Assembly: GCA_002179805.1 (NCBI GenBank)
Contig: NAVB01000024.1
Location: forward strand, 25,359-89,358
Direction of reading: 5' to 3'
From: Acanthamoeba lenticulata
Lineage: Eukaryota > Discosea > Longamoebia > Acanthamoebidae
Length of the DNA: 64,000 nucleotides
Positions 22,322 to 38,996 of this stretch are shown piece after piece. The number at the start of each line of letters is the position of its first letter. Position 1 is the stretch's first letter. The notes under the pieces are model-generated. The model was not told the origin of the DNA, did not search any database, and saw only the letters and a program-made list of their open reading frames with translations. The position numbers and the translations under genes are program-made.

Positions 22322-25300
22322 ATGGATGGGGCTCTAACTTGCTTCATCTTCACCTTCCTCTTCACAATCTCTCTAGCATCCCCCATAACACCAGATGCCT
22401 CTTTGCCTGATCTCTGCATTGTGGTCAATTACCACACTGGTAAAGCTTCCCCCTTCCTGCCGTTGTGGTAAATAGTACTAATTTTCACCTCTGGTGGGTC
22501 TCACTCAGCAACATTGCCTGCGGTTGATGGCTTAAACTCGCCGGCGCAAGAGTCGCCTAAGACTCCGCAGTGGAACAGCCTCAAATGGGCGCGTGACGCT
22601 TGTGTGACACACCAGGGTGACTCCTTCACCTTTGCCGACACCAAAGGGCAGCCCCAGTCTTCGCTCCAGTTGGCCGATGGCTTTGCGCAGTTGCAAGGGC
22701 TCACTTCGTCCAAGGGCACCGTGCGGCGCTCCATTACGGCACAAGTCTCGGCTGACGGGCAGCAGCTCGACTTGCTGAACATCACCCTTGAGTTTGGCCT
22801 CTCTGTCAAGTCCGCCAAAACCAGCGCCAACATTGCGGGCGTCGTTTTCAAGACCATCACCAACGTTCCGCTGCGTGCTGCCACGAGCCTACCCACGGGG
22901 TGGCAAGGCGCCCTGCTCCCGCCCACCTTGACCTCTTCGTCGCTGGCCCTCTACGACGCTGACCTCTGCGACGGCACCTTCCCCGCCGTCGTGGACACCA
23001 CCGTCAAGCTGCCCGTCAATGTCACCCAGATGCAGGACGTGGCCGACATTGTTCGGGACGTGTTGGGCAGCCCGTCCCTGCGCCAGGTCCTCTTTGACAC
23101 GGCCCCGTCGGCCCTCCGCGAGACAGTCCGCGGGGCCTTCCTCAATTCTTCCTCCTTTGCCCCCGTGGCCGCGGCGGACGTAGTCGTCGGCAACATCTGG
23201 GCCTCTGCCTCGGCGGTCCCGGCCGTCGGGCTGCTGCTCCAGAGCGTGGTCAAGTGTCGCGGCTACGAGTGCGCGAACACGCCCGTGGCCGCCGCGTTGC
23301 AGCAGCTCGTGATTGCGTCAGCGCGCGACCAGGACCTGTGTGCCGCCCCTGTCCTTGTGACCGACTCTCTGAGGGCGTCGGTCAGCGTCGACCTCTCGGT
23401 CGTCCTCTCGCGGGCGGCTACCGACCTCACCGACGCCCTGGTGCGGGCTCGCGGCATGGGCGCCCGGAGCGAGGCCCTCTTCAGCTGCGATGACGGCGCC
23501 TCCTACATCGGCATCTCCCTCGTCGTGACGGGACCGCTCAACGACACGCTGCCGCCGTGGCCGCTGCTGGGCCTCACCAACCAACGCACGGCCGTGAACC
23601 TCGTGCGCGCCATCCCCGTGGTGACGCGGGGCCTCATAGCCGGCACCGTCCGCAGCACGGCGGCTACCGGTCGGCCCAGCTTCTACAGCGTCCTGTCGGC
23701 CGACTTGTTCGCTGCGCACCGGGGCGGCCTGCTGGTCCCGGACTACCCTCTGCGCGCAGCCGACCTGACCGCCAATGCCACGAGCCTCTTCGCTGCCGTC
23801 CGGAGTCGGCTGGCCACGACGGTGCCGCTCGTGGACGCGCTCCTGGTGGAAATCTTGCCGAGCGACGCCAAGGCCGTGGCCGCGCTGGTCGACGACTACG
23901 TCGGCCAGACGTTCGAGCCGTCGCTCTTTGGCTTCCTCCACTACCTCGCCCGCGCGTGGCCTGCCCAGATGCAGCTTTTTGTGTCGACAGATGGGCTTGA
24001 CGCTATGATCTCGTTCGACATCGCGCGCCCGCTCACCCGCATCACCACTTCGTCAACCGCTGCGCCCATCGTCGCCCGGGCGAATAAGGCGCTGAACGCC
24101 CTAGGCGCCGCCGTGATAAAGATGTACGACAGCCTTGACGACTACACGACGCCGCGAATTCCGAAGAACCTGGCCAATACCAACATCGGTCTGGCCCGCT
24201 TCTTCACCGGCGCAGTGACCATCAACTGCTCGCTCGCCGTGGCCGACCATAGCAGCACCACCGACATGGTCGTGTCCGTCATCGTCGAGCCGCGCTACAG
24301 CGCCGTTGCGACGGTGCGGGCGAGCTTCCCCGACGACTCTGGGGACTCGGACCAGCTGTTTAGCGCCGCCCGCATCGTGTACGACTTGGGTGCTGACGAC
24401 GTGGCGATCACCGCCACGGCTGAATCCGACGTGGAGGACGTCATCGGCGCGATGGTGGGGCTCACCCTCGGTGGCCACCTGGGCGTCGAGGGCTCGTGGG
24501 GCAACCCGTCGGCCCTGCAGGCCTCCCTGCGCGGCATCGCCGCGGGCATCGGGCAGGTCGAGTGGGCTCGCGGCGTCGTGCAGCCCTTCACCAACGTCGA
24601 CTTTGGGCGCATGACGAACAGCGTGCGGCTGAACGACATGGTCGCCGCGTTGGCCGCTAGCGCGACCATCAGCTCCACGGAAACAACCACCGCGTGGACT
24701 CTGGCCACCACGCTCGAGAACGCGATTACGGCCTACGCCAAGAATGACAAAAATGTGATCCTCCGCGCCCGCGTCGTTCCTCTTCTCGCCATACAGACCC
24801 TCGATGTGGCCCTGGTCGTCTACAGCCAGAGTCGGGCGCAGCTGTCGGGCGTGGGCACTTCGTGGGAGACCGTGGTCGACACGTCGCGCCTGGAGATCCC
24901 GACCGCCCTCACCACGACGCTGCGCTTCACCGTGAGTCCGTCGGCGTTCAACATCAGCGCCTTCCAGGTGGCCGGCGCGGGCGAGCTCCACGGCTGGGCA
25001 CTGCCCTTCACCTACCGCATGCTATCGGGCACGGTGACGAGCGGCTCCGTAGCCGGCTTGTCGGTGAACTTGCCCAGCACCTCGCGCATGCGCCTCGTGA
25101 TGGGCGTCACCACCGAGCGGCTGGACCTCATGGCCAGCGTGTCCGACGCCGATCTCGTAGATCCTCGCCGGGCCGTGATGAAGGTTACTACTGTCGCCGA
25201 CGGCTCCGATGCTCGCCACGGGACGCCCACGGTCACGGCCTCACGCGTCATGGCCGTCCTGAGCGGCGTCATTCTGCCGGCCTTGCCGCAGGCCTTCAAG

Positions 25301-28300
25301 GGCGCGCTCAACGTGCCCATCCCGCCGCTGGAGCAGCCGCTCGGCTCGGTCACGCAGTTCAATACCCTCCTGACCAACATCCAGCCCTGGCTGGGCGCCG
25401 TGCCTCGGCCGGCCAACACGGCCCAGCTGGTCCAGTCGGAGCTCTATTGCACGGGCGTGCCGCTGGGTACCAACGTCACGGCCTTTACGCTCAACGTCAG
25501 CCTTAACGGCGACGCGCAGCCCCAGCAGTGCCGCGCGTCGGGGCCGCTGACGCCGGCCAGCGTCGCCGACCTGCGCGATGCCGTGGCGTCCCTGCTGGAC
25601 GGCTGTGGGCTGAGCCCTTTCCTCGCCGTGCGCGCGCTCGCCACGCAGAGGCAGCCGGACGGCAGCCAGTGTGGCCGCGTGGGCCTGTTCCCCGCCGTGC
25701 CGGGCATCGTGTGGAGCCTGGCCGTGGCGACGGTCTCGGTCGGGGGCAACGTGACCATCACCGGCAAGTGGGTCACGTCGCCCGACCCGGCCTTTGGCAC
25801 CTGGAACGACTTTGCCCGCCTCGTCGCGGCGATCTTTGCCTACGACGACGACCCGCTCGGCTCGGGCTCGGCCCAGTGGACGACGGCCAACGCGTCGCTT
25901 GTAGTGCCGCCGGAGCTGGCCGACTGCTACCCGCCGGAGCTGCCGGCCATGGCCGTGCGAGTCGAGGCCAACCACGCCGCCGAGGACTACGAGTTTGACC
26001 TGCAGCCTCAGATCACCGCGGCCGACGGCGCGCTTCAACTGCAATCGCACACGGCCAAGGGCTCCGGCGTCGTGACTTCGACCCTCTCGGCCGTCATGTT
26101 CACCGTCTTTGGCGCACCGATGCTCGGCGGCCGCGGTAACATCAGCCTCAGCACGAACTTCGACAGTGTCAACGTCACCATCAACGCCACAGTCGTTCCG
26201 CCGGCACCCAACAACACGTTTGTGCTTCTCATTAGTGCCCAGGTCCTCACGCCGTCCGCCCGGCCCGGCCTCGAGGCGCCCCCGCCGCCGGCGTGGATCA
26301 GCCTGCGGCAGCTCATCGAGCTCCCGCCTGGGAAGCTCGTCAGTGCGGCCCTGCTGGAGGACGTCGTGCCGCAGATCAACGCCACGCTCCAGCCCATGAT
26401 GGCCGTCTATCTCGTGCCGGCGGACGGGCTCGTCCACACGACCGCGCAGATCCGCTTCGATCTCATGCGCCGCCAACTGCCCGACGGGCGCTGGCTCCTG
26501 CCGGCCAAGTTCGGCTTTGATGCCGTGTCGTCGCTGCCGGCCATCACCAACGCCACCAACAGCCCCGCCCAGGCCGTGATCCTGGCCAAGGACCTGTCTA
26601 TGACGCTCGCCACCGACGTCCAGGCCGCGCACGCCGTCCCGGCAGCCACCAACAGCAGCACGGCCGAGGGCCCTCGAGGCCGCATAGGCGCTCTTGCGTT
26701 CAAGGCCGCGCGGCAGGCGACGACCAGCCGCATGCGGGTGACGGTGACGGGCACCAGCTCGTACCAGAACCTGACCGACCTCTACCCGTCGCGCGAGACC
26801 TTCTTTGACTCGTTCCGCGTGACCGTCGCCGTCAACAACTCGGCCGTCGTCACGGGCGTCGACCTGCCCGACATCGCCAAGCCCGACCACAATAACAGCT
26901 CGGCGGCCCACTACGCGGCCGCGGTCAACCCGGTGGGCCTCGAGATGGCGCGCGTGGCGGCGGGCCTTGGCGGACCGGCGCGCAACGAAACGCCCGGGAT
27001 CCGCTTCGGGCAGGTGGGCCACTACCTCGTCGACAGCCTCGGCGCGCTCAAGAACCTCACGCAGCGGCTGACGTCCTGGTCCTCGAGCTTCAACGGCACC
27101 AAGCGCGCGATGGAGCGGTTCCGCGGCCTGCTGGCCACGAACGAGTCCATTTGCGTGTGGATCGACCTGGCCAACGGCCTCGCCACGGCCATCACTCTCA
27201 CGCCGCTGGTCAACCAGCCGATCCCGTTCACCCAGCGCACCTTTGGGTCGATTATCACCGAGAACGTGGTCGACCAGCTCGACGCGCTCGAGACCAACGT
27301 GTGCGGCGACCACCAGGCCTTCTCGTTCGACACCTTTTGCCAGTTTGTCCAAACGGCCTTCACCGGCACCGTGACCTCGTGCGTCAACGCCACGCTCTCG
27401 TCGGAGGCGCTCACGGTCGACCTGCTCGTGCGGCCCTTTGTGCGCACCTACGCCGACCGACTTAGCCTTGACACCCGCGCCCTCTTCAAGAACTCGGGCC
27501 TGCCCGCGGGCCTCGGCGGAGACGGCGACCTCGTCATCACGACCGGCATCGACTTTCGCCTGCGCTTCATCGCCAACTTGACCGGCAACGTGACCTTTAG
27601 CCTCGACCACGACGTCACATCGCTGGCTGTTGACCTCGACTTTGACCTCCGCGGGTCGGTCTCGGGCACCTTTGGGCCCGTCACCCTCACGCTGCCCGAC
27701 GCCCACGCCTGGGTTGGCAGGCCAGCCTCCCTCGTCGCCCGCCTGCCGGCTCCGTCGCACGCCGCCGTTACCGTTGAGGGCGCCGGCAGCAATGGCACCA
27801 GAAACCACACGACGATGCCCGTGCGGCTCGACATCGTGGGCAAGGCCGGCTTCGAGAGCGTGGTGGGCTTCAGCACGGACGTGCAGTGCCAGGTCAGTGT
27901 GGCCATCGACGACTTGGAGGCCTTCCTGGCTGGCAAGGCCGACCCGGTCGTCCACGAGGAGGACTGCGGTGAGGGCTTTGCCGAGGAGCTCGTGCGGCTG
28001 CTGCACATGCAGTCGCTGGCCGACTCGTTCACGCTGGGCCTGGTCACCCAGTGGGAGACCGGCCTTGCGGCGTTCATCGATCTCTTCATCGGCGCGCTGC
28101 GCGAGAGCGCCGAGCTCCCGCTGGTGGGCAACCTCGTCACGGCCCTCGTCTCCGACAGCGTCCTGCAGGTCAACGGCGCCGACGCTGTGAACAGCCTCAC
28201 GCGGGCCATCACCTCCATCGACGCCAACACGCTCCGGCAGAACGTGTCGCAGACCGAGGCCCAGATCGAGCAGCTCGTGCTCAACCTGTTCACCGAGGCC

Positions 28301-31300
28301 CTGTGCTTCGAGTTCCGCCACCTGCTCGTTGCGTGCCCGCCGACCCCGAGCGCGTCGGACCAGGTCTTTGCATGGCCGCTCCACTTTGGCGGCGCCAACG
28401 CGCTGCCGCTGCCCCATGTCGGGTTCGACCTGGGCGACCACGGCGTGGCCTCGCTGGCATTCAAGTGCGGCGTGGAGCTCGAGATGGAGTGGGACCTGCG
28501 GACGACGATGCTGTTTAACCGGTCGCACGGCCTCTCGTTCCACTTTGACCCGAAGCGGCCCGTGTTCGAGGGCGACATCCTGCTTGAGGCCGACCATGGG
28601 TGCGAGCTGTCGGGCTCGCTGGGCTTTGTCGGCGCCGACCTCAAGATAAAGCAGCCGACGCTCCTGGCGGCCAACCTGACGGTGGACGCCGGCTTCAACA
28701 TCGAGCTTGAGGCGTCGGCGCAGCTGCTGGGCGCGCTCGACCTGGGCTTTGGCGGCGAGCTGGCCGAGCGGCTGGCTCACTCGCCCGACGCGCTCGACGT
28801 ACTGCCACACTGGCAGGCGACGGTCAACCTCACGTGGGACTGGGACTTGCGCCACAACACGCACACGACGCCCCACTTTGACATCAGCGGCATCGGCTTC
28901 TGCGTCGGGCGGCTGCTGACCAAGGTCGTGGCCGGCACCGTGGCGCAAGCGGCCGACAAGCTGCTCCACCCGCTCAACCCGGTGCTCGGGCCCGACGGCA
29001 TCCTCCTCAAGCCCGTGCCGGGCCTGTCGGGCGTGTTCGGCAACGAGATGAACCTCGTGCAGCTGCTGGTCTACGCATGCCAGTCGAGCAGCGAATGCAA
29101 GTTTGGCGGCCTGCTCGAGATGCTGCAGACTTTTGTCCAGGTCTTCAACGACATCGAGCGGCTGGCCGACATCGCGGCCATGCTCGACGGCGAGGGCTGC
29201 AACATCGTGCAGTACGCGCGCAACTTCACCGTCGACTTCCGGCACCCGGACCCTGCGCCGGCCTTCTACGGGCCGATGCCGCCAGAGGGCCTCCACTTCA
29301 AGGGCAACGCGCAGAGCAACGAGGAGCTCAAGTCCAAGGCCAGCGGCTTCCACAAGGGGGCCACCACGAGCGGCAAGTTTGGCGTCCGGATCTACGCGTT
29401 CGATGACCTGGCCGGGAACATGCTCGCCGTCTTCACGGGCAAGGACTTCCCCCTGGCGGGCGTGACGCTGCCGGATGTGACCTTCTTCGTGGGCATGGAG
29501 TGGCCCATCCTCATATGGGACCCGCCCGAGGTGGACATCATCGTCGGCGTCAACGCGCGGCTCACGCTGGCCTTTGGCGGCGTCTCGCTCATGTACAGCG
29601 GCATCGCCGGGGCGGTCAAGACTAAGTCCCCGGGCGTGCTCTTTGGCGCGCTGGCCCTGCCCACCCGCAACGACGACGGCTCCGTCCGCTGGCCCGTGCA
29701 GGCCGCCATCGGCCTCTACGGCGGCGTGGCCATCGACATCTTCATCTTCCGCGCCGAGACCTACCTCACCGTCACCCTCGAGGGCGACGTGGGCTTTGTC
29801 GACATCGACAACGACGGCTGGGTGACCATCAACGAGATCGCCTTCCTCATCCGCCTCAACGGCCCCGCCGGCGCCATCCGCTTCCGCATCATCCTCCAGC
29901 TGGGCTTTGGCATCAAGATTCAGACCTGCATTAACCTCATCGCCGTCCGCTACTGCTACACGTGGACCGACCAGCACTGGGACCACTCGTGGACTCTCTT
30001 TGAAAGCGAGACCAACGCGCTCGACTCCCTCGCCACGGCCTCTGGCGCCCAGACCTCGGTCAACCTCGCCCTCGTCCCCTTTGGCGGCGGCCGGCGTCAG
30101 CTCGGCTTTGTCGACAGCGAAAAGGACGACCACAGCGAGGGCTTTGCCAACGCCACAGCGCTCGCCGTGCCGGCGCTGACGGCCTATGACGCATGTGAGG
30201 ACCACGGCCTCGTGCACGCTCGGGTGCAGGCCCTAGCCGCTGCGGCGGCCGCAGATGACGGTCTCGTGTTCTCGCTGTACCAGATGAAGACGGCCCTGAC
30301 GGTGGACTTTACGCCGTCGGGCACGCCCTCCTTTGGCAGCGCGCCGCACATGTCGCGCAGCAACCTGCCCCTGGGCCAGGCCATCACCTCCCACGGCGAC
30401 CCGGGCGACCGGGCCTTCACGTGGTCCGTGGGCTACGTGACCCAGCTGGTCATCTTGCCCGACCACCCGACCGTCACGCTGCGCTACCTCGTGAGCGATT
30501 ACAAGAACCTGAGCACCATCTCCGTCTCGCCGCAGGCCGTCACGCCCAACGCGGTGCCGGGCGTCACGATCGCCCGCTGCGCGCGGGTGCACTTTGCCAA
30601 GCCCAAGGCCTCGGTCAAGTTCAACCTGTGGGGCGTGCCGTGCCCGGTCCTGCTCGAGTCGGCCATCGGGACCAACATCTCCATCACTGGCCGCGTGGCT
30701 GACTACGCCAGCCGGCCAATCATCATCACGGGCCAGGCCTGGGGCGTGTTCAGCACCATCGCCGCCACGGCCCTCAGCATTAACTCGTCGGCCATCACGG
30801 CCGGCGACGACGACGGCGCCGCCCAGGTGGGTCTGCCGGCTAAGTTCAAACTGCTGTCCGTGACGGGCGACCTCCAGCGCTCGTCGGTCTTCACGCTCGG
30901 CGACGTCCCGGCGGGCACGTCGGTCAGTATCACAGGCGGCGCCGGGGACGACCGCTTCGTCGTGTCCGACATGCAGCTCCTGCTGGGCAGCGCCATGATC
31001 AATGGCGGTTCGGGCCTGGACTCGTGCGAGATCGTCGTCGACACGCCGCCGGGCCTGGGCGTGGCCATGACCGCCACGCCCACGGGCCTCGTCGTGCAGA
31101 ACGGCCTCAACGCCACCCACCTCAACGGCTCCACCAGCCCGGGCAACAACAGCAGCAGCACCAACAGCAGCGGCTCACCGACGGTCTACGTGCTACGCCA
31201 CACGGGCGTCGAGCGGCGAGTCTACCGCGTGCGGGGCGCACCCAACACGCGCAGCAACGTGACGCTGCTCGGGGTAGCGCGCGACGACTCAGTGGTCGTG

Positions 31301-34300
31301 GTGGCCCAGGGCGCACCCGGCGGCACCATCGTGCAGCACATCACCGGGTGCGACGGCAAGTCGGAGCTGCGGATCAACATCGAGGGCAGCGGCTTCCACG
31401 AGGTCCACATCGGCGACAACGGCCAAGTGACCGGTATGCGCTGCACCGTCTGGCTCAACGTGGCCGCTGGCCCCGGCGCCAACGGCTCGACGCCGAACGA
31501 CCTGTCCGTCGGGGTCATCATCGAGGCCGGCGCCGAGAGCCGCGCCCTCGAGTATGATATCCAGCAGAACGCGATCCTCGTCTACGAAGTCGACGACAAG
31601 GACGGCGGCTTCTTCCACCTCATGTTCCCCAACGAGGGCGTCGATCAGGTCCAGATCCAGTTTGGCAACGGCGGCTCCGTGCTGCGCATGGCCGAGGGCA
31701 CCACCGGCACCGAGTTTGTGTTTGCCTTTAACGACAACAACAACGCCAGCGCTGCCAACGTCACCGACGTCGCTGAGGAGCCACCTACCAACGTGGTGTA
31801 CATCACGGCCACCAACAGTCCGGTCCTGATCACGGGCTCGATCACGCAGCTCAACCTCGGCCCCAAGCAGAGCCAGATCGGCGGCGCCAATCCGCTCCGC
31901 GCCATTCTGGCTCCGGTCGCCATCGCCCAGCCTCTGACCAGCGGCGCGGTCGTGAGCCTGGCCTCGGGCACGGGCAAGAACGCTCCGCCGCAGAGCTTCT
32001 ACCTCGACCAGGGCTGCCTCGCCCGGCTGAACAGCACCAGCGACGGTGGCCCAGTCGGGCCTAGCCACGTGAGCCGCCGGCCGTCAGCCTGGCTCTGCAA
32101 TCGCATGACGTCGCACGGCCTGCCGGCCGCCGCGTGCGCCAATCCGTGCCCGCTGGTCTACGCGGGCGCCATCAACTTGACCATCGCCACGGGCTGGGCC
32201 AATGACTCCTTCTACGCCGTCAACGTCAGCACGGCCAGCGTCGCCCTCAGCCTCGGCCCGGGCGCCGACAACGTCACCTGGTTCGCCGGCGTGCCCGCCT
32301 CTGAAGGCCTCAACGGCAAGCGCCCGGCGCCGGCGACGGCGCGCATCGATCTCGGCCCGGGCGCCGACTTTGTGCTCGTGGATTCGCCGACGGGCAACGC
32401 CGCTATCTCGCTGGGCCGCGACAACGACGTCGACACGGTCGCCTTTTACTACGGCGGCCTCGCCCTGCCGCCGAGCGTGCACGATAACGTGATCAGGCCC
32501 GTCGGGCCCGACGATGCCTCTTTAGCCCTCAAGCAGGTCCGCACCGAAGACCTCCTCTTCATCTACGGCGGCCACCCGACAGCGCCCGCCGTGGCAGCCG
32601 CCGACGGTCCGGTGATCGGCAGCGGCCGCGTCGACAGCGATATTAGCAGCCGGCCGGTGGTCACGGTCAACATCACGGTGCCGGGCCAGGTCATAAACAT
32701 GGACGTGCAGTCCAACGTGACCTACGTCGTCGTCGGCTCGGCGCCGCTGGCCACACTCAACCTCAACGGTCAGGCCCGCAAGCAGCCGCCACTGCCGGCC
32801 GCCCAAGACTGGGACATGGTCGTCGACGTGCCCTCGTCGGTCGCCATCGACGTCAACATGTTTGCCGCGGCCGGCTCGCGCACAATGGCGCTCGTCAATA
32901 TCACCGGCGCCGGCAGGACCGGCCTGGGCCCGCAGCAACCGGTCAAGCTCGAGTCCCTGGAGCCGCCCGGTCTGTGCCGCATCACCGTGGGCGTCCTCCA
33001 GGTGCGCACCACGCACGTCGAGCACATCAAGCTCACCCCACAGGGGGCCGTCGCCGTCGAGGTCGCCGGCACGGCCGGGGCCGACCTCGTGATCCTCGCG
33101 CCGCCGCCTTCTTCTTTGCGGTCGACCGTTCACTTGGCCAGCGCCCAGGGCGATGCGCTTGTGGTCAACGCCTCAGTCGTCGTCTCGCAGGCTGCGATGC
33201 TCGCCGGCCACACGATCGTCGCCGCCGGCGCGCAGACGCAGGTGGGCTTTGACGACGACATGTCGTTCTCGGGCGCGTCGTTTGTCGGCGGCTGCCTGCT
33301 GGCCGACGGCATCGCGCCGCCGGCGCCCGCGTCGTTCTCAACCTGGTTCGCTGCAGAGGTCATCGGCGCGGGCATCAACGCCACGGCGGCGGCCGCCGGC
33401 TGCTCGCTCTTTGCCAACCGAGTGGACAGGCTCAACCTCACGACGCCCAGCCTGCGCATGAGCGGCCTCGGCGCCGAGCTCGTCATCCGGCGGCTCACCC
33501 TCCAGCGCGTGGCGGCCAACGTGGAACTCGACAACACGGGCGCGCCGGCGTGGACCAACGCCACGGTCCGCGGCACGCTGCTCGGCGTTGACGGCCGCTT
33601 CGCGGTCGACCTCGAGGCCGGCGGTCAGCTGACCGTCACCACGCCTGTCTTTGTCGGCGGCGACAACGGCAGCCTGCTCGATGTCTATGCCGTCGACGAC
33701 CGCGCCAATGCCACCCGCCAGCCCGCTTGCCAGTGGCTCTTTGGCACGCAGGCCGCCACAGCGGCCACGGCCTCGGGCGCGACCCTGCTCATGAGCTCCG
33801 CCGCCGACCCTGACGGCCAAGAATTGACCGTCGTCACGCTCTACGGCTCATCGCTGCTGGCGCCGCGCCACCTGCCGCTGGTGCGCCTGCACGGCCCCGT
33901 GCGCCTCACCGCCCTTCTGCACAACGCCACAGACGGCACCCGGCGCGACGTCGTAGTCCGCCCGTCGGCGCTCTCGGTCGTGGAGGCCCCGCTCGCGCCG
34001 CCCAATGTGACCACGCCGGCGGCGTCCGCTACGGCGCCGCTGCTCCACGTCGCGTGGGTCGGGGCTCTGCCGACCTCGGGAGGAGCAGCCCACCAGGCGA
34101 GCCTCCAGCTGGAGCTGCTCGACGGCCACAGCAACAGCGTCGCCTTCAATGCCAGCCAACGCTGGCGCCACGCGCAGGCCGCCTTTGGGCCGCCCGTCAT
34201 CGTCGTCCACGGCGCGGCCACGCTGGCCCTCAGCCCGCCGGCCAACCTCGCGGCGCCGGCCGTGAACCTCCTCCACACGAGCGCCATGCGGGCCGACCTC

Positions 34301-36151
34301 GCCACGCAGTTTGTGCAGCCCGTCGCCGGCCCGGCCGATGCCGTCTACTGCTTCCAGCCCAACCTGCAGTGCAACGTGGACTCGTGGCTGTGGCTCAGCG
34401 TGCGCCAGGCGCCGTGGGTCGATGCCGACCTTCCGTGCCGCTCGAGCGATGCGCTGGCCAGCTGCCGCCGCGCCGTCTTTGCCGCCCTCGACGTCCGGGG
34501 GGCTGCCGTCTGGCGCCACCGCCTGCGCGCCGTCCTCGAGCCGCCGCAGCTTCCATCGCCGTCACCGTCGTCTTCACCTTCGTCACCATCGCCGTCATCG
34601 TCACCGTCGTCGCCTTCGTCATCGTCATCACCGCTATCGTCGCAGTCATCTTCGCCGTTATCTTCACCGTCGTCTTCGCCATCATCGCCGTCATCGTCCC
34701 TGCCATCGCCGTCGCTATCGTCTTCACCTTCGTCACCATCACCGTCATCTTCATCGTCGCCGTCGTCGCCACTGTCGCCTTCATCGTCGCCTTCGTCCGC
34801 TGTGGCTTCGGCTTCGGCCTCGGCCTCAGCCACGCCCAGCCCGCCGCCCCAGAGCAACAGCACCAACGCCACGGGCGTGATGCCCATGTCGCTGCCCATG
34901 ACGAGGGCAGTGGGCCGACGCACGGAGCAGGCGCCTGTCGTACAGCTGCCGTTCGTGCTGTACGTGGGCAACGACGCCACGGGCCCTGCGGGGCAGCACG
35001 AGGGCGGGCTGGCCCAGTCGGCCCCGAGCCAGCGGGCCTACGGGATCAGCGTCATCGTGCTCTTTGCCGTGCTCACAACGGTCGGGTTCGGCTGGTGGGC
35101 CGTGACGGGCAGCATCGTCCCGTCGGGCTGGGGACCGCTCGTCATCACGGCCGCCCTCGCGGGCCTGCTCGACTCGACCGCGTCGACGGTGGGCACCAAG
35201 TCGTGGGACCCGCGTGTGGTGGCGCTGGTCGAGGGCGCCTACTGGATCGTGGGCGCGCTGGCCTCGGACTGCCGCCCGCTGGGCGACTTCCACCTGGCGG
35301 TCCTGGGCGTCTTCATCACGGCCAGCCTCCTGACCCTCCCGGCCTTCTTCTACAAGTGGCGCAAGGTCGTGCCCGTCCTCCAGCGCGCCGCCACGGCCCT
35401 GGCCGTCGTCACGCTGCCGTTTGCCATTGCGCAGGTGCCCGGCACCAGCGACGGGCGCGAGTGGGGCCTGTTCACGGGCCTCGTGGGCGCCTGCGGGGCG
35501 CTCGCGCTGGCCTCGTTCTGCTTCCACACGGTCAAGGCCCTCCCGAGCCGGCGGCGGCGCTGCTTCTCGTTCCTGCCGGCCTTCTTCACGGGCCTCGTCG
35601 TCGTGTCCATGTCGGTCCTCGCGCGCCTCCGCGAGTCGCTCGGGCCCGACCACGGGCCCCCGCGCGAGCTCCTCTACACGGCGGCCCTGGTGGCCCTGGG
35701 CGTCGACGCCGCGGCGAGCCTGAGCAGCATGCTGGTCCTCATCTCGCTCGTCAAGGGCTGGTGGCGCGTGAGCCCGCTCATCCTCTCCGGCGTGGCCATG
35801 TGCCTCAGCGTCGCCGCGGGCCTCGCCTTTGTCGGCGGCGGTGCCGCGGCCGCGACCACCGGCGCGCTGCCCGTGGTGGCCTTTTACCTGTGGCTCCTCG
35901 TGCCGTCGGCCGCGACGCTCCTGGTCATGTGCCTCCCCTACCCGGTCATCGCCAAGCCCGCCGTCGACGACACCCCGGCCAAGGCCCCGCGGGGCAGCCG
36001 CCGACAAAGGCGCGCGGGCAAGGCCAAGTCGACGTCGAGTAGCGAGGATGAAGAGGAGGACGACGAGGACGACGAGCAGCCTCTGCTCTCCTTCAACCGC
36101 ACGGGCAAGGACCATGAGGAGGAGGAAGTGGAGGAGGCTGGTGAACGATGA
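22322..36151 (+). CDS. Giant secreted/surface adhesin-like protein with polytopic C-terminus
   Basis: Exons 22322-22439 and 22509-36151 make 4,587 codons (4,586 residues). Exon 1 starts at ATG and encodes a signal peptide (hydrophobic core CFIFTFLFTISLAS). A phase-1 intron joins it to a 13.6 kb uninterrupted exon. Seen in order: about 2,400 residues of beta-strand-like, Val/Thr/Ala-rich sequence with many N-glycosylation sequons; at about residue 2470 a perfect EF-hand/dockerin loop DIDNDGWVTINE; at about 2850-2885 GGAGDDRFVV and INGGSGLD; further on SLGPGADNV and DLGPGADFV, resembling RTX-like or LEPR-XLL-like bacterial repeats. A Ser/Pro stalk lies at about 4055-4140, then roughly eight TM helices at about 4217-4520, and a basic then acidic cytosolic tail with SSEDEEEDDEDDE. 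Role is inferred: a calcium-linked surface adhesin anchored by a polytopic domain. I recognise no enzyme. One intron in 13.8 kb is exceptional beside neighbours with an intron every 100-300 bases. Confidence 0.85.
34549..34810. repeat. TCA/TCG/TCT/CCA-type trinucleotide tract coding the Ser/Pro stalk
   Basis: About 260 bases of near-tandem T-C-N and C-C-N codons encode an almost pure Ser/Pro segment just before the C-terminal membrane region. Repeat units such as CGTCACCGTCGTCTTCACC recur with small changes. This is consistent with a mucin-like O-glycosylated stalk and with length variation by slippage. Confidence 0.85.
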
Positions 36152-36248: not shown

Positions 36249-37937
36249 ATGGAGGTGGAGGAGGACCGCACCGGGGGAGGGACGCCGTGGGTGGGGCTGT
36301 CGCTCATGCCGCATGAGCTGTACAGGCGGGCCATCCAGCCGCTCCTCGACGAGCACCTCGTTGACGCCCTCGAGTGGAGGTGCGTCTGTCTCCAACAACA
36401 GCACCGACAACAGAAACAAACAAACGCAAACAAACGGGCGGGGGGGGGAGAGAGCAGCTGCGACATCGGGTGGGGCGGGCATGGGCTGCCCCGGTGGGTG
36501 GAGCGCTTGCTGACGCGCTACAGCCGGGCCGGGCGGCTCTTTGGCCACGGCGTCATGTACTCGCCCACCTCGGCCATGTGGGAGCCCGACCGCCAAGCCG
36601 CCGTACGTTGCTCCTGAGCCACGTCACCGGTTCCCTTCTACGTGAGCTCACGCATGCATTCGCGGAGAAGTGGCTCAAGCGGCTGGAGGCCGAGTGCCAA
36701 CTGCGGCGGTTCGAGCACATCACCGAGCACTTTGGGTTCATGACCGCCGGTGACGCGTTCCAGGGCTGCCCGCTGCCGCTCCCCTTCACCCCCGGGTGTG
36801 CCCGCCCTGCCCTTCACCAGCATGCATCACCTTTCGTTGTATTCTTCTTTCTCACATGGGCGGAGGACAGGGCGGTGCGCGTGACCGTCGATCGTCTGCG
36901 CCGCATGCGCCGGGCCGCCGGGGGCGCGACGCCCGTGGGCCTCGAGAACCTGGCGCTGGCCATGGTAAACGTCCGCCCGTGAGGAGCTCGTGGGTGGCGC
37001 GCATTGTCAGGTGCGCTAACGACGGTGGTTTGCGCACGCAGGGCATGGACGACGTGGAGCAGCAGGGCCCGTTCATCGCCGCCGTGCTGGAGCAGCTCAA
37101 CGAGGACGAGCCCGGCTCCGGTGTGATGCTGCTCGACCTCCACAACCTGTACTGCCAGATCGCCAACTTTGGGCTCGACCCGGAGACGGCCTTGCGGCGG
37201 TATCCACTGGCGCACGTCCACACAATCCACATCTCTGGCGGGTCGTGGTGCAACCTGGCCTCTGGCGGGAAGCCCTTCCGCCGGGACACCCACGACGGCG
37301 ACGTCCCGCCTGAGATCATCGACCAACTGCTGCCGCTCGCCCTGCGCCTGTGTCCCCGCCTTCGCGTCGTCATTCTTGAACGGTGCGGTTAGAGACATCA
37401 CCTTGGGGCTCATCCTTGGGTGCAGGGGCGCCTCACATGTGCGCACATACAGGCTGGGTGAAACCATCCAGTCGGAGGAGGACGCCGAGAGGCTGCGCCA
37501 AGACTATCGGCGGATCCGCGAGATGGTCCACCAACACCGGGTGCCCATGGGCGGAGAAAACGAGCGGCGGCGTGCCGAGGGGGATCGGCAGCGGGGCGAG
37601 GAGGAAGCGGATCGGCAGCAGGACGAGGAAGAAGAGGCTCCATACGAGGACGAGGAGTTGGGCCGGTACCAGGCGGCCTTCCTGCGTCTGTTCGCGCAGG
37701 ACCTGGCGCCCGAAGAGCTCCTGCAGCAGCTTCTTGCGCTCCCCGCCTTCGGGCCCTTCCGTGGTGCGTTCCCGCTCTCCAGGTCCAAGTTTGAGGGTAG
37801 GTCTCTCACCAGCTCACCCTCTCGGCGCAGACTACGTGGCCGGGTTCGACGTGCGGTGCGTGGAAGTGGCGTCCGTCCTCGTGCACAAGTGGGTCCGCTT
37901 CCGCGATGGCAGGCGTACAACGACAAGAAGAACATAA
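36249..37937 (+). CDS. DUF692-family enzyme (MNIO / MbnB-TglH-ChrH type)
   Basis: Exons 36249-36379, 36458-36602, 36668-36795 (or 36647), 36871-36964, 37042-37382, 37453-37763 and 37831-37937 give 419 codons (418 residues). Known: DUF692 proteins are TIM-barrel, multinuclear non-heme iron oxidases that modify Cys or Asn residues of peptides, as in methanobactin synthesis. Seen: EWSCDIGW (about 42), GHGVMYS (73), TEHFGF (111), VGLENLAL (157), LLDLHNLYC (196), HTIHISGG (226), RRDTHDG (246) and VILER (276), the conserved metal and substrate positions of the family in order. After the barrel come RLRQDYRRIR, a Glu/Arg/Gln-rich charged insert (about 305-340) and a C-terminal segment with FLRLFAQDLAPEELLQQL and DVRCVEVASVLVHKWVRF. 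Start: first in-frame ATG, 97 bases after the giant gene's stop. Six introns show that it is a resident eukaryotic gene. The substrate is unknown. Confidence 0.82.
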
Positions 37938-38148: not shown

Positions 38149-38996
38149 TTATTTTTGCTTCTTGTTGAGCTTCTTCCTCTTGAGGCCATCCTCGAAGTTG
38201 AGCTGGATGACACCCCAGAAGCCGAAGGGCACCAAGATGGAAGCGACGCTCAGGAACGAGAAGATGCCCCAGTTGGCCTGTCGTGGTGAAGACCGATTAA
38301 TAACTTGCAGATGGTGACTACGTTACGAAGGATGGTGGACGTACAAGGTGAGAGCCGCTGCGGACCTCGCCGTCGCTGGACGACTGAATGGGCAGCGAAC
38401 CGACACCATTGGAGATGGAAACCTGAAAGAAGGAGAGAATTGAGCAAAGGATCACTCGGGCCACTCCATCGAGAATTGTGGGCGCACCAGGACGGAACCC
38501 TTAGGGCTCTCACGGTACTGGGCGTAGGCGGGGTAAGCCCTCACGACAGTGTTGGCAACACCGGCCTTGGGCTGGACAACGAAGTAGTGCGAGACATTCT
38601 GGCCACTGCACGCAAATCCATTAGGCCTCGTACAAATTGGGCAACACTGCTTAAAGTGGGCGGCGTACGGGGCGATCTTATCCCACGAAGCGGTAGGAGT
38701 GCCAACCTTGAGGTCAAAGTTCTTGAGCCAGTCCTGATCGATCAGCTCCACATCATACGCGTTGCTGTGGCCAAAAGGCTCAATTAAGTCCATTTTCATG
38801 AAGGACCTCTACAATTACTTTGATGGGTGAGGGAAATGTACGTCTTGCCAGTGTTGAAGATGTTGATCTTCACTGCAACAGCTCGCGAGGAAAGGATCTC
38901 ATTGTTGGCGATGGTTTTCCGAACAACGAGCTCCGCACTGCAGAGGGAAAGGAGGAGGACCAAGCCCACCACGCAAAGCACGATCTTGTGCAGCAT
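38149..38996 (-). CDS. Translocon-associated protein subunit beta (TRAP-beta / SSR2)
   Basis: Exons on the minus strand: 38996-38842, 38764-38669, 38605-38488, 38422-38345, 38277-38149; 192 codons (191 residues). Seen: a signal peptide (IVLCVVGLVLLLSLCSA), a lumenal beta-sandwich with IFNTGKTNAYDVELID, DLKVG, WDKIAPGQNVSHYFVVQP and KAG, then a TM helix in IFSFLSVASILVPFGFWGVI, and a basic KRKKLNKKQK cytosolic end. NVSH is also a glycosylation sequon in the position used by animal SSR2. Known role: a type I subunit of the TRAP complex beside Sec61 at the ER. The di-lysine-like tail fits ER residence. The splice choice after GSVL (donor gtgcgc) was made because it restores phase 0; a later gtgatc donor breaks the frame. 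Confidence 0.9.

Follow-up and report, generated by a model that had tools for sequence, protein, structure and literature searches.

What does an amoeba do with an iron enzyme of a family whose described members, in the parts of the literature consulted (PMC12636315, PMC10214503, PMC12452194), are bacterial? The question is raised by a gene at positions 36249-37937 (+) of the window, the 64,000-nucleotide stretch of Acanthamoeba lenticulata DNA analysed here, which a first-pass annotation had read as a resident DUF692 gene for a peptide- or thiol-modifying oxidase with no described eukaryotic role. On the latter point, literature searches for DUF692, MNIO (multinuclear non-heme iron oxidative enzyme) or UPF0276 in eukaryotes, and for DUF692 or RiPPs in Acanthamoeba, agreed with the annotation, returning no report of a eukaryotic MNIO among titles and the beginnings of abstracts, and no word starting with eukaryot, amoeb or Acanthamoeba occurs in the main text of PMC12636315.

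A resident gene with six introns

Rebuilt from the raw sequence, the gene comprises seven plus-strand exons that join into one open frame of 418 aa, with a TAA stop ending at 37937, and the seven motifs previously listed for the spliced protein were all recovered in this frame. Exon 1 (36249..36379) provides the ATG start and the first barrel strand (WVGLSLMP), and was aligned to Balamuthia and bacterial relatives. The iron ligands are carried by the four following exons: H74 in GHGVMYS on exon 2 (36458..36602), H113 in TEHFGF on exon 3 (36668..36795), E160 in GLENLAL on exon 4 (36871..36964), and D198/N201 in LLDLHNLYC, H229 in IHISGG, D248/H250 in RRDTHDG and E279 in VILER on exon 5 (37042..37382). 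Exon 6 (37453..37763) encodes the end of the barrel, a charged linker and the start of a C-terminal helical bundle, placed according to an ortholog model, and exon 7 (37831..37937) the remainder of this bundle and the stop. A tandem acceptor (GAG|AAG at 36668/36671) makes a start of exon 3 at 36671 possible, giving a 417-aa form whose RQxxW spacing matches that of the relatives in the alignment.

The six introns are all of GT-AG type and 65-78 bp long: intron 1 (36380..36457, GTGCGT..CAG, 78 bp), intron 2 (36603..36667, GTACGT..GAG, 65 bp, or 68 bp to AAG), intron 3 (36796..36870, GTGTGC..CAG, 75 bp), intron 4 (36965..37041, GTAAAC..CAG, 77 bp), intron 5 (37383..37452, GTGCGG..CAG, 70 bp) and intron 6 (37764..37830, GTGCGT..CAG, 67 bp). 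Their number is as first described, but the GT[AG]CG donor style attributed to them holds for four of the six (GTGCG, GTACG, GTGCG and GTGCG), GTGTG and GTAAA deviating from it. About 0.5 kb downstream, on the same 89-kb contig, lies a eukaryotic TRAP_beta exon (38452-38808 (-); Pfam 34.1 bits, cut-off 22.4); TRAP-beta is a translocon-associated protein. Because of its introns and of this neighbouring exon, the gene is no contamination, as already argued in the annotation, and represents a resident, nuclear, intron-bearing eukaryotic gene, present as a single copy in the 48.5-Mb, 1825-contig genome.

Directly upstream, the window holds a single open frame of 4559 codons (22472-36151 (+)). This frame contains an extended Ser/Pro-rich region and, towards its end, several hydrophobic segments, and has no Pfam match at E 0.01. 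Some regions of the assembly are present twice with few differences (e.g. C196/C893, C50/C1492, C823/C1528 and C273/C1689), as if two haplotypes had been kept separate; unlike these, the enzyme locus and the peptide locus described below are single in the assembly.

Family, fold and origin of the enzyme

The protein matches Pfam PF05114 (formerly DUF692) over residues 60-284 with 80.4 bits, for a gathering cut-off of 25. Ranking of NCBIfam models placed ChrH (NF050165) first with 279.4 bits, versus 56.3 for BufB, 50.2 for HvfB and 26.5 for ApyH, the last three falling below their curated cut-offs of 310, 360 and 400 bits, respectively. NF050165 is itself an equivalog model, MNIO_ChrH (chryseobasin maturase), with a cut-off of 600 bits, which the amoebal protein does not reach. 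As yardsticks, the enzymes of Dyadobacter luteus (L062), isolate SJ512 (L052, barrel only) and Paraliomyxa (L042) score 390, 323 and 251 bits on this model, Dyadobacter being the genus of the characterised DybH and isolate SJ512 the source of the characterised mel cluster, and 600 bits is reached by none of the proteins scored for comparison, six of them bacterial relatives and three other amoeba-like ones. Since the ChrH model comes far first at 279 bits, the amoebal protein is ChrH-type but, by the 600-bit cut-off, no chryseobasin maturase, and its membership of the ChrH-type MNIOs, within the MbnB/TglH/ChrH family, is nearly certain.

None of the His, Glu and Asp ligands on which the DUF692 assignment depends has been lost. 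The nine iron ligands of TglH (H71, H107, E151, D184, N187, H216, D229, H231 and E258) are identical at all nine positions of the amoebal protein (H74, H113, E160, D198, N201, H229, D248, H250 and E279), seven of them aligned directly to TglH and two (H74 and H113) through 3bww and the family alignment. The fold was examined on the predicted model of the Balamuthia mandrillaris ortholog (P0001; pLDDT 90, pTM 0.91), standing in for the window protein itself, which consists of a barrel and four C-terminal helices (384-442). A structure search with this model returned DUF692 enzymes as the first seven VIA-align entries and the first six Foldseek rows, recovering the expected DUF692 TIM barrel, with 17-21% identity to TglH and MbnB structures in the structure alignments. 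As judged from this ortholog model, the window protein shares the DUF692 TIM barrel and a C-terminal helical bundle.

A charged insert and a C-terminal module (VASVLVHKWVRF) had been singled out as a possible binding site for a partner or substrate. Both are present, but they align with the linker and bundle of bacterial members, and 29 of the best 120 of 2570 matches, the Balamuthia protein included, span at least 92% of the query. The module is therefore no amoebal novelty, since an additional C-terminal helical bundle after a linker characterises the ChrH-type subfamily, according to the consulted part of PMC12636315. The barrel fold and iron ligands are shared with TglH and MbnB (PDB 8hci/8hi7 and 7dz9/7fc0/7tcr/7tcw), which, unlike the amoebal enzyme, are without the C-terminal bundle in the same part of that source; these two enzymes act together with TglI and MbnC as partners, and catalyse carbon excision or oxazolone-thioamide formation.

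The closest relative among the matches listed is the Balamuthia protein, a database entry named 'DUF692 domain-containing protein' without assigned function, which has the same architecture and 47% identity over 95% (E 7.3e-113). Sequences of eukaryotic source numbered two among the best 120 of 2570 matches, and likewise among the best 120 of 1914, namely Balamuthia and one EukProt transcript; the search of viral_contigs gave no relative of the enzyme. In an IQ-TREE phylogeny of 72 rows, the comparison with amoebozoans and bacteria that the annotation had called for, the window protein, P0003 (73% identical to it over 143 columns), P0001, P0004 and P0002 form one clade (100/99), P0002 and P0003 being called amoeba-like from the tree alone and P0004 being the EukProt transcript, with species not given. 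This clade is nested in a 25-row set (98/89) in which Myxococcota account for 11 of the 13 named bacterial loci. FastTree (201 rows) placed the amoeba-like clade (0.977) beside Melainabacteria-type enzymes, and we preferred the IQ-TREE placement inside the mostly myxobacterial set. Because five amoeba-like sequences form one clade within this set, a single bacterial transfer is the simplest account, and the phylogeny suggests one acquisition of the enzyme gene from bacteria that predates the divergence of these amoebae.

A tail motif in bacterial loci and in the amoeba genome

Published ChrH-type enzymes oxidise CPxCGxG tails, and DybH works without a partner protein, also on tail-bearing GFP; a large substrate, the 34-kDa MelA1, is known as well (consulted parts of PMC12636315 and PMC10214503). 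The extent of this association was evaluated on 80 bacterial loci, the best among 216 relatives that two peptide patterns had retrieved from GTDB genomes. An ORF of at least 30 codons ending in CxxCGxG lies on the enzyme strand in 70 of these 80 loci, and one ending in the strict CPxCGxG in 60; in 65 loci, the CxxCGxG end is located at most 600 bp from the enzyme start. The opposite strand carries such a frame in one locus, where it is a second one, ending in CGPCGMG (L016:2511-2882 (-)); none of six permuted motifs was found in any of the 80 loci, on either strand. The ten loci without a CxxCGxG frame include six (L068, L074, L076, L082, L083 and L093) in a Melainabacteria-type clade (100/100), where the precursor can sit kilobases off (bacterial L046 and L067), the others being L026 (Melainabacteria), L027 (planctomycete), L044 (myxobacterial) and L028.

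Several bacterial loci display particular arrangements. Beside CPPCGMG or CPGCGMG precursors, the Bacteroidota loci L019, L022, L024 and L050 hold frames ending in CGKCGKG and CEACGRG, perhaps several precursors per enzyme. In the planctomycete loci L029, L040 and L054, the open frames terminated by a CPPCGMG or CPGCGMG tail are 267-299 codons long and may represent a form with large precursors outside Cyanobacteria. Among the matches listed, seven bacterial ChrH-type enzymes (P0029, P0033, P0095, P0118, P0155, P0167 and P0174) carry a fused zinc alcohol dehydrogenase-like domain; the 732-aa enzyme of L028 (7935-10130), in whose locus no CxxCGxG-ended frame was found, matches these fusions in length and pairs with P0029 in the tree. 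The dehydrogenase-fused enzymes possibly have another substrate or a further oxidation step.

In the amoeba, a whole-genome search for strict CPxCGxG-TRR gave four matches (one in the reversed control) and no credible gene. Amoeba site L003 (CPACGRG-stop) is antisense within a protein kinase gene, sites L002/L004 (CPFCGCG-stop) are 29-aa frames with a better-scoring antisense frame, and site L005 ends in TGG. Embedded CPxCGM was matched seven times, versus seven in the control, in frames that appear by eye zinc-finger-like or unrelated. The relaxed CxxCGxG-TRR motif gave 87 matches genome-wide against 83 in the reversed control, and hence no genome-wide excess. These 87 comprise 48 TGG-ended matches, which were left out, 3 with an internal stop and 36 clean stop-terminated sites, of which 35 (all except C1244) were screened coarsely by open frame and codon use; sites L003, L126, which sits between kinase exons, L002/L004 and a pair on contig C128 were inspected individually, the rest by the coarse screen only.

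Among the 35 screened sites, the C128 pair alone combines a tandem copy with a coding-like upstream exon. On the minus strand of that contig, CYACGRG-stop and CLACGRG-stop are separated by 398 bp. From 87 random matches, about 0.04 pairs on one strand and at most 500 bp apart would be expected, and two permuted motifs, with 76 and 81 matches, yielded none. The pattern [DE]PCxxCGxG, without stop requirement, is matched four times in 48.5 Mb (control 0), by the C128 pair and by a site, present in duplicate, that lies antisense to a cobalamin-independent methionine synthase gene; only the C128 pair has both the preceding [DE]P and a stop directly following.

The first candidate gene (C128:15018-14894 + 14844-14775 (-)) has a predicted product of 64 aa ending in LPKEPCYACGRG (KEPCYACGRG-stop), and the second (C128:14669-14518 + 14443-14377 (-)) one of 72 aa ending in RLTDPCLACGRG (TDPCLACGRG-stop), with an N-terminal hydrophobic segment of 19 residues (mean hydropathy 2.49). 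In both genes, the last exon is joined in phase over a GT-AG intron. When the six frames were compared by codon use, the first exons ranked best (3.2 versus at most -9.9, and -0.1 versus at most -26.5), and the motif-bearing last exons did not (own -14.1 versus a best of -11.2, and own -6.1 versus -2.0). Over the last ten sense codons, the two genes share four identical codons (P, C, G, G) and show three silent differences (A, C, R) and three residue differences (K/T, E/D, Y/L). Splicing from the first exon of gene 1 to the last exon of gene 2 would likewise preserve the frame, so that alternative splicing is possible, and the resulting 63-aa form is an equally plausible reading of the locus. 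The pair lies between a plus-strand 2-oxoacid dehydrogenase acyltransferase gene, downstream of which it stands on the opposite strand, and a plus-strand frame of 343 codons that has no Pfam match and is a gene by our reading only. Comparison of the 72-aa peptide with the protein collection gave one candidate with shared words and none at an E of 10 or less, and no paralog of it was found in the genome; the same genome search with the 64-aa peptide gave two weak and unconvincing matches (E 0.08 and 0.39).

Amoebal tails have Y or L where P stands in most bacterial precursors. Similar variants also end frames in bacterial loci (CPACGRG (6), CTACGRG, CLACGMG and CEACGRG), of which those seen once may be due to chance. 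Overall, the enzyme resembles ChrH, DybH, MelH and ArlH (NF050165; consulted parts of PMC12636315 and PMC10214503) by its TIM barrel, the same iron ligands, linker and C-terminal helical bundle, by its best-scoring family model and by bacterial relatives lying beside CxxCGxG-ended frames. It differs from them by its eukaryotic host, its six introns, a score of 279 bits versus the equivalog cut-off of 600, tails of CYACGRG/CLACGRG instead of CPACGMG, and candidate precursors located on another contig, unlike the bacterial clusters. From these sequence comparisons, we strongly infer that the C128 pair represents the candidate substrates of the enzyme.

A putative eukaryotic ChrH-type pathway

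The best explanation of these observations, and in our view a likely one, is a eukaryotic ChrH-type RiPP pathway in which the C128 tails would be oxidised into a sulfur-bridged macrocycle and a hydantoin. The balance of evidence also tilts towards a complete pathway, made of a bacterial MNIO that has acquired introns, two unlinked nuclear precursor genes, one of them with a membrane or secretion segment, and a C-terminal oxidised two-cysteine macrocycle. By analogy with the chemistry described in the consulted parts of PMC12636315 and PMC10214503, the enzyme would use a two- or three-iron centre and O2, with the substrate thiolate bound to iron, for a four-electron oxidation of the CxxCGxG tail at the C-terminus of short ribosomal peptides, generating a sulfur-bridged macrocycle between both cysteines and an adjacent hydantoin, and would need no separate partner protein. 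The most likely substrates would be the predicted 64-aa (KEPCYACGRG) and 72-aa (TDPCLACGRG) peptides of C128 (-), with a predicted mass change of -4 Da (+10 Da with additional S-methylation). For bacterial precursors that carry a signal peptide, the consulted parts of the literature describe cytosolic modification before export; given its hydrophobic segment, our guess is that the 72-aa product may likewise be modified in the cytosol, then displayed or secreted.

Alternatively, a ChrH-type enzyme could act on the C-terminus of another amoebal protein, comparable to the 34-kDa MelA1, the C128 pair being coincidental. ChrH-type enzymes accept large proteins and GFP bearing the motif (same sources, consulted parts), a motif split by an intron would evade pattern searches, and C1244 and the 48 TGG-ended matches stood outside the motif screen. 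This alternative nevertheless appears unlikely, as none of the other clean sites in the coarse screen of 35 out of 36 shows a coding-like upstream exon in addition to a tandem copy, and only the C128 pair unites a preceding [DE]P with a following stop. Recruitment of the enzyme in amoebae to a small thiol or metabolite rather than a peptide would be consistent with an enzyme gene that is unclustered with any precursor, with the dehydrogenase-like fusions of the bacterial relatives P0029, P0033, P0095 and P0118, and with the L028 locus, paired with P0029 and devoid of a CxxCGxG-ended frame. We consider it quite improbable, since the MNIO functions described in the consulted parts of the literature, including PMC12452194, all concern ribosomal peptides, and since the amoebal proteins retain the C-terminal bundle and occupy a branch separate from the dehydrogenase fusions, amid enzymes whose neighbouring frames end in CxxCGxG. 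Finally, a functionless relic of a bacterial gene, compatible with the single copy, is hardly credible, because seven intact exons, the full set of iron ligands and a shared branch with the Balamuthia ortholog, the 73%-identical P0003 and two more amoeba-like sequences argue for long retention.

The reading of the enzyme as an amoebal peptide- or thiol-modifying oxidase is supported, and the RiPP pathway gives it a nameable candidate substrate, turning a 'DUF in a eukaryote' into a testable prediction with a defined mass change. If true, the pathway would add eukaryotes to the hosts of a new class of iron oxidation chemistry, and its unlinked organisation would show that eukaryotic systems can be found by the tail motif of their substrates. 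As amoebae feed on bacteria, a peptide resembling bacterial products would invite tests of metal binding, defence and signalling.
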